Source: a virus. From it: DNA of 20,924 nt. Numbering within the stretch: the stretch's first letter is position 1; every line of letters starts with the position of its first letter. Shown here piece by piece: positions 11,576 through 19,009 of the stretch. The stretch covers positions 1 through 20,924 of the IMG/VR virus record IMGVR_UViG_3300042430_001185. One strand, written 5' to 3'. Below the pieces are notes generated by a model. That model was given only the letters and a program-made list of their open reading frames with translations, was not told where the DNA came from and searched no databases. The translations under genes were made by a program, and so were the position numbers.

Positions 11576-12199
11576 ATGAACACACAGCAATTCCAAAAAC
11601 TTATTCGTTCCGTAACTGGACGACCGCTCACTATTGAGACCGAATCTGAAGAAATAGAGCTTGAAACTAAGATTGTAATTTCTAGACCATGGAAAAATGG
11701 GAAAAATGCTTTTTCTTTCGAGTGGAAAACACCGAAAAAAGAAGATTCTTTACTTCGTAGCTTTATAACCGCTTTTTGCGCTAAGTATCGCGAACCAGAC
11801 CCCGCAACCTATTCCCGCAACTGCTCCGCCTATGGCGACAGGTGGGTAGGGCATGAAGAAGAATGGAATAATCCTGAGACTCACTGGAACTGCTCGCTGT
11901 GGAATCACCACGCAGGACACATGACCACTAAGGACAAATTGAAAGCGCAAGTCATCGCCAACTTTGCAAGCTTTGATGCGGGAACTGCTCGCCTTGGTTT
12001 TTATGATACGCACTATGGCATTGGGATATTTACAATTTACGGGGGTGATTGGGTGCAAAAAAGCCTTTCCGCAATGTCCGACTATCTGGCAAGCAAGGCA
12101 ATCCCATACCGCAATGAACTCTCCGATGCTGGTTGGGTTACTCGCTTCGTTATAAATATTGACAAGACCGCTCACGCATCCTTGTTGCGCTCGTTTTAA
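11576..12199 (+). CDS. Hypothetical early protein, 207 aa
   Basis: Unrecognised soluble protein beginning MNTQQFQKLIRSVTGRPLTI. It has a Trp/His/Asn-rich centre (NCSAYGDRWVGHEEEWNN, then HWNCSLWNHHAGH; about residues 82-118) that could bind metal or ligand, and a C-terminal part with LGFYDTHYGIGIFTIYGG. A GTG at 11531 would add 15 residues encoded by the A/C-rich leader (DNHNTTQHNYNLN); the ATG at 11576 is preferred since that extension is simply the leader translated. Stop TAA (12197-12199) is immediately followed by stem I of the first hammerhead ribozyme, so the mRNA would be cut 45 bases after the stop codon. Confidence 0.7.
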   Translation: MNTQQFQKLIRSVTGRPLTIETESEEIELETKIVISRPWKNGKNAFSFEWKTPKKEDSLLRSFITAFCAKYREPDPATYSRNCSAYGDRWVGHEEEWNNPETHWNCSLWNHHAGHMTTKDKLKAQVIANFASFDAGTARLGFYDTHYGIGIFTIYGGDWVQKSLSAMSDYLASKAIPYRNELSDAGWVTRFVINIDKTAHASLLRSF

Positions 12200-12258
12200 G
12201 CCGCTGATGAGTCCTTGGCACAGGACGAAACGCCGCAAGGCGTCTGGCATAGCCAACG
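12200..12258 (+). ncRNA. Hammerhead ribozyme 1 (type I) with 3' hairpin
   Basis: All conserved parts are present in order: stem I 5' strand GCCG (12200-12203), CTGATGA (12204-12210), stem II GTCC/GGAC (12211-12214 with 12223-12226) closed by 8-base loop TTGGCACA, GAAA (12227-12230), stem III CGCC/GGCG (12231-12234 with 12239-12242) closed by a GCAA tetraloop, then the GTC cleavage triplet (12242-12244), then stem I 3' strand TGGC (12245-12248). The last A of GAAA pairs with T12243. Stems II and III are closed and stem I is open, which defines type I. Predicted cut is after C12244. Downstream, TGGC-ATA-GCCA (12245-12255) can form its own hairpin. It begins at the base after the TAA of the 207-aa gene; the 3' product gives the 161-aa gene a 27-base leader. 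Confidence 0.93.
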
Positions 12259-12271
12259 TAACAACTACAAC

Positions 12272-12757
12272 ATGAACATGACAACACAACACGACAACAC
12301 GACACAAGCCGCCCTTGCCATCATAGCAGCAAGCCCCGCAACATCCGCATGGAAGCGCGGGGTTAAAGCATATGCGCTCGAAATGGTTGAGGAGCTAGCC
12401 GACCAGCTGGACGCGACATATAGCCCCGAAAAACTGTTAAACGGTGCTAGGAATTGGAGCGAGTATTCTTGCGGAGGCAACGCGCTGATTTACAATTCCG
12501 ACATTGCAGAGAGACTCTGCAGCCCATCCGAGCTGAAGCGCACCAAGAACGGCGACAACCAGCCGAGCAAAACCGAGACATGGATGGACGTGCAAACGCG
12601 CGCCCTACGCCAAGCCGCTCGTTTGATTGATTCCGCTTACAGACGCGCCGAGAGACCAGCACTAGCCACAGAACGCCCAGGTGACCATGCCGCAGCACTC
12701 GCGGAGGAATGGGGCTGCAGTTATTCAGATGCACTAGTGTATTGCAACTGCGATTGA
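12272..12757 (+). CDS. Conserved hypothetical phage protein, 161 aa
   Basis: Soluble protein starting MNMTTQHDNTTQAAL. The stretch AWKRGVKAYALEMVEEL (about residues 26-42), then SEYSCGGNALIYNSDIAERL and ETWMDVQTRALRQAARLI, resembles a family of uncharacterised proteins seen in gut bacteria and their phages (my recollection, not searched). No catalytic motif is known. ATG 12272 or the second ATG at 12278 both follow AACTACAAC. The frame is open back through the hammerhead to the in-frame TAA at 12197, so the 207-aa and 161-aa frames are separated by a single in-frame stop. After ribozyme cleavage it would be the first gene on its message. Confidence 0.72.
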   Translation: MNMTTQHDNTTQAALAIIAASPATSAWKRGVKAYALEMVEELADQLDATYSPEKLLNGARNWSEYSCGGNALIYNSDIAERLCSPSELKRTKNGDNQPSKTETWMDVQTRALRQAARLIDSAYRRAERPALATERPGDHAAALAEEWGCSYSDALVYCNCD

Positions 12758-12760
12758 TTG

Positions 12761-12806
12761 CCTTGCCCGTTGCTCTCTCCGCTGGGGAGGGCATAGGGCG
12801 GAGCAA
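12761..12806 (+). ncRNA. Candidate H-type pseudoknot after the 161-aa gene
   Basis: Two interleaved pairings can form: CCTTGCCC (12761-12768) with GGGCATAGG (12789-12797, one bulged T), and TTGC+TCCGC (12770-12773 and 12778-12782) with GCGGA+GCAA (12798-12806), leaving TCTC bulged. The two 3' strands are adjacent, as expected for coaxial stacking. It begins 4 bases after the stop codon and is followed by an A/C-rich leader and the ATG at 12837. The two stems were found by eye; no energy was calculated. Confidence 0.45.
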
Positions 12807-12836
12807 ACAGCCGCAACACAACCAACACAAGAAATA

Positions 12837-13190
12837 ATGATAACACACACAAAAGGAAAATGGAAAGCCGAAGGCTGCACAATCTACAGCGGAGAAACCA
12901 TTCTCGCCGTCACCTACTGCGAGGGAAACCGCGAACTGCATCCAAACATGCATGAAAAGGACACGCCGCCTGATTCAGACGGAGAAGAACACGGGGACGG
13001 ATGGGAGGAGGCATGGAAAAATGCCGAACTCATCGCTGCCGCTCCTAGCTTATTGGATGCCTTAATCGCAATAAAGACGCAAGCGGAAAATGCAGCTTTA
13101 ACCTTCCCGAATGCACCAGGACGAGGGGACTTGCTAACCATTGCCAGAATAGCAGGCGATGAAATCGCCAAAGCAAATGGCAACGCTTAA
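12837..13190 (+). CDS. Conserved hypothetical phage protein, 117 aa
   Basis: Starts MITHTKGKWKAEGCTIYSG and contains NAELIAAAPSLLDALIAI (about residues 62-79). The combination of an N-terminal H(T)KG.W....TIY.G..ILA and a later A.LIAAAP.LL.AL is widespread in small phage proteins of unknown function. The middle (residues 35-58) is very acidic with DTPPDSDGEEHGDGWEE. The ATG follows AACACAACCAACACAAG, the A/C-rich leader type. A role in early infection is assumed only from operon position. Confidence 0.75.
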   Translation: MITHTKGKWKAEGCTIYSGETILAVTYCEGNRELHPNMHEKDTPPDSDGEEHGDGWEEAWKNAELIAAAPSLLDALIAIKTQAENAALTFPNAPGRGDLLTIARIAGDEIAKANGNA

Positions 13191-13229
13191 GCAAATTACC
13201 AAAAAAGAAGCTCAAATCCTCGTGACACT

Positions 13230-13373
13230 ATGAAACCAACTTGCTCGCTCGTCCGCCGTCCTATCCGCCGCAATCCATGGCGGAAATGGCTCACCACCAC
13301 CGCTGAAATCATCGGGGGTATTCTCACGATTGCTCTACTTGTAACCCTAACCCTCCTGTCCTTAGCACTATGA
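13230..13373 (+). CDS. Small single-pass membrane protein, 47 aa
   Basis: Reading frame starting MKPTCSLVRRPIRRNPWRKW. The N-terminal half is strongly basic (six Arg and two Lys in the first 19 residues) and residues about 26-47 are one hydrophobic helix (IIGGILTIALLVTLTLLSLAL), giving an N-in, C-out topology by the positive-inside rule. The stop overlaps the next start as ATGA (13370-13373), supporting real translation. The leader CTCGTGACACT has no Shine-Dalgarno. It might be a membrane-active early peptide; a holin role is unlikely to be inferable from one helix alone. Confidence 0.6.
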   Translation: MKPTCSLVRRPIRRNPWRKWLTTTAEIIGGILTIALLVTLTLLSLAL

Positions 13374-13543
13374 CCACGTACACAGCACTATCACAGCGCA
13401 TCCGCGCTGCAGTATCTACTGCCGATCTCAAAGCATTAGAAAAGCGATGCGATAGGCACTATGCGGCAGGCACTATCACGCCCCGCGAGCTTGCCCGATT
13501 GGATGGGTTAATCATGGAGCGCATCGCACTACTGAACCAATAA
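13370..13543 (+). CDS. Small helical hypothetical protein, 57 aa
   Basis: Starts MTTYTALSQRIRAAVSTADL and ends MERIALLNQ. Predicted as two helices with a central turn (YAAGTITPRELARLDG, about residues 31-46), soluble and charge-balanced. No family named. Coupled to the upstream membrane peptide by a 4-base ATGA overlap and followed by ACACAACACAACACAG, the leader of the 93-aa gene. Confidence 0.65.
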   Translation: MTTYTALSQRIRAAVSTADLKALEKRCDRHYAAGTITPRELARLDGLIMERIALLNQ

Positions 13544-13564
13544 ACACAACACAACACAGAAACC

Positions 13565-13846
13565 ATGCAAACAGTAACAGGCAATACATACCCCGTAAAA
13601 GACGCCATAAAGGCACTAGGCGGAAAATGGAATAAAACAGCCAAGGGTTGGGATGTCCCAGACGAGGTAGCAGACGAGGCGCGTGCCTTAGTCTCTGGAG
13701 CGTCAACTGCCGCACGCCGCACAGTTAGCACTGGCTATGTCTCCAATGTCTATCGCTTTTCTAGCGGGGCGGAAATATACCAAAACAAGCGCGGTCGATG
13801 TGAGGACGCGCCATGCTGCGGATGCTGCGGAACAGATAGCCACTGA
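13565..13846 (+). CDS. DUF5710-like small protein with Cys-rich tail, 93 aa
   Basis: Residues 1-42 (TGNTYPVKDAIKALGGKW, then KGWDVPDEVADEARALV) match the compact pattern in which a segment 'becomes' or is converted from Y.VK...K.LGG.W....K.W.VP, seen in DUF5710-like modules that accompany phage and plasmid DNA-processing proteins. The C-terminus is Cys-rich (RCEDAPCCGCCG, about residues 78-89) and may bind a metal. Function unknown. Its TGA stop (13844-13846) is part of the CTGATGA core of the second hammerhead ribozyme, so coding sequence for the last residues (TDSH) also forms stem I. Confidence 0.72.
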   Translation: MQTVTGNTYPVKDAIKALGGKWNKTAKGWDVPDEVADEARALVSGASTAARRTVSTGYVSNVYRFSSGAEIYQNKRGRCEDAPCCGCCGTDSH

Positions 13847-13897
13847 TGAGTCCCAGGCAACGGATGAAACACCCTACGGGGTGTATGGCAAATGCCA
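13839..13897 (+). ncRNA. Hammerhead ribozyme 2 (type I) with 3' hairpin
   Basis: Stem I 5' strand GCCA (13839-13842), CTGATGA (13843-13849), stem II GTCC/GGAT (13850-13853 with 13862-13865, one G-T pair) closed by 8-base loop CAGGCAAC, GAAA (13866-13869), stem III CACCC/GGGTG (13870-13874 with 13879-13883) closed by TACG (a UNCG-type loop on a C-G pair), cleavage triplet GTA (13883-13885), stem I 3' strand TGGC (13886-13889). A13869 pairs with T13884. Predicted cut is after A13885. Downstream TGGC-AAAT-GCCA (13886-13897) can form a hairpin, as in ribozyme 1. Compared with ribozyme 1, changes in each stem keep pairing. Overlaps the end of the 93-aa gene. Confidence 0.93.
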
Positions 13898-13908
13898 ACT
13901 CAAAATAT

Positions 13909-14151
13909 ATGATACTATACCAAAAAACAGAAGATCCCCTCGTAATTGTCACAGACAGCAAAACAAAAGACGTGCAGACTAAAAAGCTAACTGGCATTTA
14001 TTTTCGGATCATTCCTCCCGCAAATGACCGTGTGAATTGGGTGTTGACCTGCTCTGAAATGCACGTTGACAGATGGGCAAGCGCAACAGATTCCACTATG
14101 ATTATCTCCGAGAATCTAAGAAAACAACTTGTCTCACTATTCTCATGCTGA
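13909..14151 (+). CDS. Hypothetical protein, 80 aa (possible 101-aa form starting in the ribozyme)
   Basis: Starts MILYQKTEDPLVIVTDS and ends LVSLFSC; soluble, mixed alpha/beta, no family recognised. The frame stays open upstream to ATG 13846, which overlaps the TGA of the 93-aa gene (TGATG) and lies inside the hammerhead core; that start would add 21 residues (MSPRQRMKHPTGC...). A third in-frame ATG at 13885-13887 is split by the predicted ribozyme cut between 13885 and 13886. On cleaved RNA only 13909 remains, with a 23-base leader, so I choose it. The end overlaps the next start by 7 bases. Confidence 0.6.
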   Translation: MILYQKTEDPLVIVTDSKTKDVQTKKLTGIYFRIIPPANDRVNWVLTCSEMHVDRWASATDSTMIISENLRKQLVSLFSC

Positions 14152-14462
14152 TCGACAACAAAATCGCGTTGATACAATCTGTTGCTGATGTTATCGGGGT
14201 GAAACCTGAAGCCATCACTGGCAAGCGCAAACGGTATTCCGAGGCTCTTGCTAGGCAGCTCGTTATGACGCTCTGGAGTGAAGCTCACTCGCTCCAGGAC
14301 TCCGCCGAAATCGTAAATCGAAGCCATCACACGGCAGCATTTTACGCACGGAAAAAAACCTACGAAAAATTGCACTATTGCGAGAACCTGAAAGAGCAAA
14401 TGCGCAAGATCCTGCAAAGATATTCACAGATTATACTTGAACAAACCACAATTAACGAATAA
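14145..14462 (+). CDS. Stand-alone DnaA domain IV-like DNA-binding protein, 105 aa
   Basis: Residues about 5-72 follow the C-terminal origin-binding domain of DnaA: ADVIGVKPEAITGKRKR (basic loop), EALARQLVMTLWSEA (helix) and SAEIVNRSHHTAAFYARKK, in the place of the DnaA signature helix (GGRDHTTVLHA). The His-His-Thr replaces Asp-His-Thr. No AAA+ domain is attached, so it can bind DNA but not remodel the origin alone. ATG 14145 overlaps the previous stop by 7 bases (ATGCTGA); a longer form from 14073 would run inside the 80-aa gene. Likely roles: binding the phage's own origin or control region, or competing with host DnaA. Confidence 0.7.
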   Translation: MLIDNKIALIQSVADVIGVKPEAITGKRKRYSEALARQLVMTLWSEAHSLQDSAEIVNRSHHTAAFYARKKTYEKLHYCENLKEQMRKILQRYSQIILEQTTINE

Positions 14463-18183: not shown

Positions 18184-18951
18184 ATGACAGCAAACACCCC
18201 GAAAGACGGAGATACAATAGCAATATGGATCTCATGCGGAGCAGCCAGTGCAGCAGCAGCAATCCTTACCGTGAGTATGTATGGAGAGCGTTGCAATATA
18301 CGCTTGCTCAACAATCCAATCCAAGAAGAACATGAGGATAATCAGCGATTTGTTCGTGACCTATCCAAGTATTTAGGTCGTGAAATTGAGGTCGTTATAA
18401 ATCCAGATTTTCCATCATTCTCGATATTCGACGTTTTTGAAAAGCGTAAATTCGTGAGTAGCCCATACGGTGCGCCATGCACGGGTGAATTGAAGAAAAA
18501 AGCTAGGCAGCATTGGGAGAACAATAACCATGCAGACTGGCACGTCATCGGGTTTACGGCTGATGAAAAGCATCGGCATGAAAGATTCGTGAAAACTGAA
18601 AGAGATAATGTTTTGCCAATCTTAATTGACAGAGGAATGACGAAAGATGATTGCGGCAAGATGATGGTAGCTTTGGGATTAAAGATGACAATAGCTTACG
18701 AAATCGGAATGCCTAATGCCAACTGTATGGGGTGCGTAAAGTCATCAAGTCCTGCATACTGGCAACTCATCAAAAAGATTGCACCTGCTCAACACGAGAA
18801 AATGTGCGAGGTTACACGACGACTTGGGTGTAAACTTGTCAGGCTACACGGCAAGCGAATTTATTTGGATGAATTACCAGATGGCTCGTATGGGAAATTG
18901 AAGCAAATGGATCTCGACTGTGGATTTTTCTGCGAGGAGAAATGGAGATAA
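18184..18951 (+). CDS. PAPS-reductase-family (PP-loop) protein
   Basis: A 255-residue protein of the adenine nucleotide alpha hydrolase / phosphoadenosine phosphosulfate reductase family as it occurs in phages. Seen: a PP-loop variant ISCGAASAAAA (about residues 16-26; the standard form is SGGxDS), RLLNNPIQEEHEDNQRF, GAPCTGELKKKA (about 96-107), VIGFTADEKHRHERF (121-135), NCMGCVKSSS (180-189) and DCGFFCEEKW (245-254). Five conserved-looking Cys (99, 181, 184, 246, 250) could hold a metal or Fe-S cluster. Real substrates of phage members are mostly unknown; sulfur transfer to nucleic acid or nucleotide activation are possibilities, and sulfate assimilation is not implied. It has its own promoter and lies in the segment bounded by 22-bp repeats, consistent with a moron. 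Confidence 0.85.
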   Translation: MTANTPKDGDTIAIWISCGAASAAAAILTVSMYGERCNIRLLNNPIQEEHEDNQRFVRDLSKYLGREIEVVINPDFPSFSIFDVFEKRKFVSSPYGAPCTGELKKKARQHWENNNHADWHVIGFTADEKHRHERFVKTERDNVLPILIDRGMTKDDCGKMMVALGLKMTIAYEIGMPNANCMGCVKSSSPAYWQLIKKIAPAQHEKMCEVTRRLGCKLVRLHGKRIYLDELPDGSYGKLKQMDLDCGFFCEEKWR

Positions 18952-18964
18952 TTTTCAAGCGGTG

Positions 18965-19009
18965 AAAAAATATCTCCCAAGGTGCGCATCGTGGAGAGGC
19001 GTGGGAGAT
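18965..19009 (-). terminator. Probable minus-strand terminator behind the PAPS-reductase-like gene
   Basis: On the minus strand ATCTCCCA (19009-19002) pairs with TGGGAGAT (18979-18972), followed by A and TTTTTT (18970-18965). The 22-base loop is long. It would stop leftward transcripts from running antisense into the 255-aa gene. On the plus strand the hairpin lacks a T run. Confidence 0.55.

Follow-up and report, generated by a model that had tools for sequence, protein, structure and literature searches.

The window, the whole 20,924-base stretch of DNA that was analysed, is a genome fragment of an uncultured phage in which two junctions between early genes carry type I hammerheads. Copy 1 lies between ORFs of 207 and 161 aa, and copy 2 at the junction of ORFs of 93 and 80 aa. 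The features are as follows.

11576-12199, plus strand: 207-aa ORF preceding copy 1, with the stop codon TAA (12197-12199) directly against the ribozyme
12200-12248, plus strand: type I hammerhead copy 1, found by the scanner, the covariance model and RF00163
12200-12203/12245-12248: copy 1 stem I
12204-12210: copy 1 core
12211-12214/12223-12226: copy 1 stem II
12227-12229: copy 1 GAA
12230-12234/12239-12243: copy 1 stem III
12244/12245: copy 1 predicted cleavage site
12252-12256, plus strand: copy 1 3' tail GCCAA, predicted to pair with loop II UUGGC (12215-12219) as a pseudoknot
12272-12757, plus strand: 161-aa ORF downstream of copy 1; its ATG lies 27 nt past the cleavage site
13565-13846, plus strand: 93-aa ORF ending inside copy 2; weak DUF5710 match, below cut-off
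13839-13889, plus strand: type I hammerhead copy 2, found by the scanner and the covariance model
13839-13842/13886-13889: copy 2 stem I
13843-13849: copy 2 core
13844-13846, plus strand: UGA of the copy 2 core, which terminates the 93-aa ORF, an arrangement also seen in most relatives
13850-13853/13862-13865: copy 2 stem II
13866-13868: copy 2 GAA
13869-13874/13879-13884: copy 2 stem III
13885/13886: copy 2 predicted cleavage site
13893-13896, plus strand: copy 2 3' tail UGCC, predicted to pair with loop II GGCA (13856-13859) as a pseudoknot
13909-14151, plus strand: 80-aa ORF downstream of copy 2; its ATG lies 23 nt past the cleavage site

Including the tails, the elements extend over 12200-12256 and 13839-13898. 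The surrounding gene cluster encodes an ERF protein and an exonuclease, and terminators between its genes showed no excess over shuffles. Directly upstream of ERF, a 104-aa protein (14148-14462) consists of little beyond a DnaA C-terminal DNA-binding domain (PF08299, above cut-off). No ERF relative in a genome exceeds 63% identity, and these relatives come from various phyla; those in cultured phages are below 60%, so no host was assigned.

Further along the window, a 255-aa protein (18184-18951) matches SspD of the Ssp defence system (PADLOC, E 4.6e-8); our own tentative reading is a PAPS-reductase-like enzyme of the phage. An abiF RNA (RF03085, 43.2 bits, above cut-off) lies on the minus strand at 18972-19008, where no neighbouring AbiF-like protein was seen, and another is found in locus L125 (7603-7638, minus strand). 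We found the exact core of this RNA, GCCTCTCNACGATGCNCA, in at least 120 IMG/VR stretches, where the outer stems differ yet are complementary and the downstream ORFs are unrelated. It is possibly a phage decoy for AbiF defence.

Detection and secondary structure of the two hammerheads

A custom strict scanner covering hammerhead topologies I, II and III found exactly two hammerheads in the window, both of type I. First-order Markov shuffles of the window gave a mean of 0.135 matches at lax settings, and none of 200 shuffled windows yielded a match with equally good stems and loops. Both copies have the catalytic core CUGANGA...GAA...NUH, in the form of CUGAUGA, GAA and GUC or GUA, and the scanner and the covariation among 32 sequences agree on three stems with stem I open. 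This bears out the sequence-only reading, which had described a complete core and three intact stems in each copy; all the stems that it listed are present as given, and stem III has a closing A-U pair in addition. With a slash at the predicted cleavage site, copy 1 reads GCCG-CUGAUGA-GUCC-UUGGCACA-GGAC-GAA-ACGCC-GCAA-GGCGU-C/UGGC and copy 2 reads GCCA-CUGAUGA-GUCC-CAGGCAAC-GGAU-GAA-ACACCC-UACG-GGGUGU-A/UGGC. The cleavage triplet of copy 2 is GUA rather than GUC, and its pair 10.1/11.1, a position that is usually G-C, is a G.U wobble. In two relatives (L441:700 and L128:5333), U.U replaces the usual G10.1-C11.1 at the base of stem II. It is possible that these two and copy 2 are slow or decaying ribozymes.

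Searching with the Rfam type I model had been suggested as a check, and both copies were matched only below the curated cut-off: RF00163 (Hammerhead_1) gave 22.9 bits for copy 1 and 11.3 bits for copy 2 against a gathering threshold of 34. We read this as a limit of the cut-off, with no structural feature missing, because nearly all other surveyed phage type I hammerheads fail it too. At gathering, Rfam recovered one hammerhead in ten phage loci in which the scanner found about 53; its type I cut-off hides most phage hammerheads. Assignments to the Rfam type III family (RF00008, 27.3 bits, wrong register) and to RAGATH-1 (16 bits) were rejected.

When 32 group members were used to build a covariance model, copy 1 scored 63.8 bits and copy 2 scored 80.5 bits, with the next match at 13.9 bits; since both copies are in the model, their own scores are not independent evidence, which comes from the 30 other members and their covariation. 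In the 32-relative alignment, 97.6% of cells held standard pairs compared to 87.3% after shuffling, and 65 two-sided changes were observed compared to 19. Sliding the partners by one column reduced pairing to 31-41%. Covariation was strong in stems II and III, and stem I and the pseudoknot were nearly invariant inside the group.

Predicted pairing of loop II with the 3' tail

Because of this near invariance, the pseudoknot was examined in a wider phage set. Here GCC was present in the tail of 31 of 31 hammerheads with GGC in both loop II and stem I and in 8 of 13 with GGC in loop II only, compared to 1 of 11 with GGC in stem I only and 10 of 227 with GGC in neither. Across about 280 phage hammerheads the tail therefore tracks loop II and not stem I, suggesting a pseudoknot. 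Alternative loop II/tail pairs, read from the same list, included UGGUU/AACC, UAGC/GCUA, UGAC/GUCA and GUUGC/GCAAC. For ribozymes with a short stem I the pairing was supported by permutation tests (0 of 2000), which revealed no loop II/tail pairing in classes that probably use other loop contacts. The scan that defined the group had selected GCCA/UGGC stems, not loop II or the tail. A post-cleavage hairpin formed by UGGC...GCCA was also considered as the selected structure and was demoted, as the tail tracks loop II and the hairpin excess outside the group is modest.

From the covariation in the wider set, a loop II/tail pseudoknot is predicted for both window copies. The sequence-only reading had suggested that loop II may contact stem I; the partner of loop II would instead be the 3' tail (12252-12256 and 13893-13896), 3-4 nt past stem I. 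The pairing is probably needed for the hammerhead fold, because energy calculations that leave out the pseudoknot favour other folds (-23.1 versus -16.2 and -20.2 versus -17.3 kcal/mol for the minimum-energy fold and the hammerhead). In another hammerhead, mutational work showed that the pseudoknot pairing is needed (PMC3088659). Collectively, these results make it likely, as judged from sequence comparison, that both elements are genuine pseudoknot-stabilised type I hammerheads that self-cleave at intercistronic junctions. Points that weigh against this reading are the different minimum-energy folds, the G.U pair and GUA triplet of copy 2, the relatives that have no copy, and Rfam scores under the cut-offs.

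Placement among the genes and proposed mRNA processing

Each copy had been described as sitting directly after a stop codon. This holds for copy 1, which follows TAA, and not for copy 2, where the stop lies inside the core. Of 282 distinct type I hammerheads from phages, 53 have the core UGA as the stop codon of the upstream gene; in another 53 this stop overlaps stem I, in 39 it directly adjoins that stem and in 30 it is 1-6 nt upstream. Together these four classes account for 62%, compared to 4% of random positions and 12% of non-hammerhead CTGAYGA sites. The counts are descriptive, since ORFs of 50 codons or more were called in a simple way, loci were picked by sequence pattern and the sequences are related. 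When the ORF minimum was raised to 80 or 120 codons, hammerheads still differed from control sites. Type III hammerheads keep a distance from the stop, often of about 30 nt, and 3 of 56 (5%) have it in the same classes; several position and pairing measures were examined before these were chosen, and the percentages call for a retest on an independent set. In the open-access literature that we searched, both the stop-codon rule and the contrast between types I and III are apparently unreported.

The most likely role of the elements is co-transcriptional self-cleavage between cistrons, after which the upstream mRNA would end in a folded structure and the next gene would be released. Assuming from gene order that the cluster is transcribed as a single operon, each ribozyme would fold as the polycistronic RNA is made, once the GCC of the tail pairs with the GGC of loop II and fixes stems I and II next to each other. 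The cut would fall at GUC/U (12244/12245) in copy 1 and at GUA/U (13885/13886) in copy 2. The upstream mRNA would keep the whole folded ribozyme as its 3' end, with a 2',3'-cyclic phosphate, and the downstream mRNA would begin with 5'-OH UGGC, 20-30 nt ahead of the start codon. The phage's long mRNA would in this way probably be cut into separate gene units, and we infer that the flanking gene blocks would then decay and be translated independently. That the polycistronic RNA is split had been proposed from the sequence, and the idea is supported by covariation, position and precedent (Perreault et al. 2011, PMC3088659). Because termination occurs on the ribozyme, ribosomes probably compete with its folding; those ending the upstream gene would sit on it and may delay cleavage.

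Translation might have a more decisive part, which we propose tentatively. A terminating ribosome would unfold the ribozyme, so that only RNA with an untranslated upstream gene would be cleaved and the element would be a translation sensor, not a constant processing site. The use of the core UGA as the stop in 53 of the 282 type I hammerheads, the 62% with a stop nearby or within, and the set-off position of type III would fit such a switch, although the arrangement could merely reflect compact genomes. By extension, type I hammerheads could perhaps be a general 3'-end module, fused to the preceding stop and gated by the ribosome, that couples translation to release of the next gene, with type III ungated; this too we regard as less probable than its converse.

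Relatives of the cluster comprised 80 viral loci collected via its ERF protein and a few hundred more from pattern scans of IMG/VR. In close relatives, between one and four similarly built type I hammerheads lie upstream of ERF, at changing gene boundaries, and some relatives have none. In others, type II hammerheads occur among these early genes (L138:3923, L143:4302, L129:2566, L136:3716, L140:4142 and L145:1050). A third gene family follows a type I hammerhead in L134 and a type II hammerhead in L138 and L143. These findings do not fit the special paired system of two copies that had been envisaged. The proposed division into 207-aa, 161-aa to 93-aa and 80-aa/DnaA-like/ERF units is likewise not conserved as such, because copy number, boundaries and type vary among relatives; what recurs, while the neighbours change, is a copy preceding the 80-aa gene in close relatives and one preceding the 161-aa gene in L125/L126, L374 and L135 as well as here. 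At two loci (L067:8443 and L071:6674), the predicted cleavage site of a type I hammerhead is the first base of a tRNA-Tyr gene, and the 3' strand of stem I is the start of the acceptor stem. These hammerheads could make tRNA 5' ends instead of RNase P.

What follows the 207-aa gene and its hammerhead is the 161-aa gene in the window and the 80-aa gene in L459, where the homologue of the 207-aa ORF likewise runs into a hammerhead. We looked for signs that recombination moves the ribozyme together with the upstream gene and saw no clear linkage. The same upstream gene before different genes, and vice versa, in a cluster encoding ERF and an exonuclease could mean that the ribozymes serve mainly as short homologies for cassette recombination, with cleavage secondary. 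This is unlikely, as the compensatory differences in stems II and III are not needed for recombination alone and type II substitutes for type I among the same genes. The sub-gathering Rfam scores and the G.U pair of copy 2 would also be expected of inactive look-alikes or chance matches, a reading made very improbable by the shuffled windows, the compensatory changes and Rfam's failure with nearly all other phage type I hammerheads. Least probable is a selfish, retrozyme-like element in which the two same-strand hammerheads, 1641 nt apart, release a unit-length RNA able to circularise: the copies sit at gene ends, the intervening ORFs are ordinary protein-coding genes rather than tandem units or an independent RNA element, copy number and content vary among relatives, and circular products were sought and not found by Perreault et al. 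2011 (PMC3088659). For intercistronic self-cleavage, the preferred reading, the phage group offers orthologous copies at named gene borders, exchange of types I and II and a clear position rule, which make the ideas of mRNA processing and translation coupling directly testable.

Comparison with known systems

Pseudoknots in hammerheads of types I, II and III, and clusters of prophage hammerheads flanking genes, were described by Perreault et al. 2011 (PMC3088659); tandem native arrays were tested and such clusters cleaved in vitro, one was reported to cleave in E. coli, and mRNA processing was proposed. The window copies resemble these in the type I core, the loop II/tail pseudoknot and the several copies on the coding strand that flank single phage genes or short blocks, two here and one to four in relatives. 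They differ in their GCCA/UGGC stem I, their GGC/GCC pseudoknot and their position ahead of the 80-aa and 161-aa genes, a lineage that is new to us. That paper says nothing about the core overlapping the upstream stop; the term 'stop codon' does not occur in it. A 2017 review (PMC6155905) repeated the phage link and called the role of bacterial and phage hammerheads open. Theta ribozymes of gut phages (PMC10879173) are also small, self-cleaving and involved in phage RNA processing, but they have an HDV-like fold and cleave at tRNA 3' ends.

RF00163 shares topology and core with the window copies, which have a shorter stem I and the pseudoknot. The type II hammerheads of the same phage group (L129, L136, L138, L140, L143 and L145) share the chemistry and placement but are circularly permuted and open at stem II. 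In synthetic insulators of the RiboJ type, which are engineered, hammerhead cleavage is followed by a hairpin ahead of the start codon. In contrast, the corresponding hairpin in the window is just 4 bp long, is in competition with the pseudoknot and shows no independent conservation. Type I phage hammerheads are thus a kind already known, to which the window pair adds.
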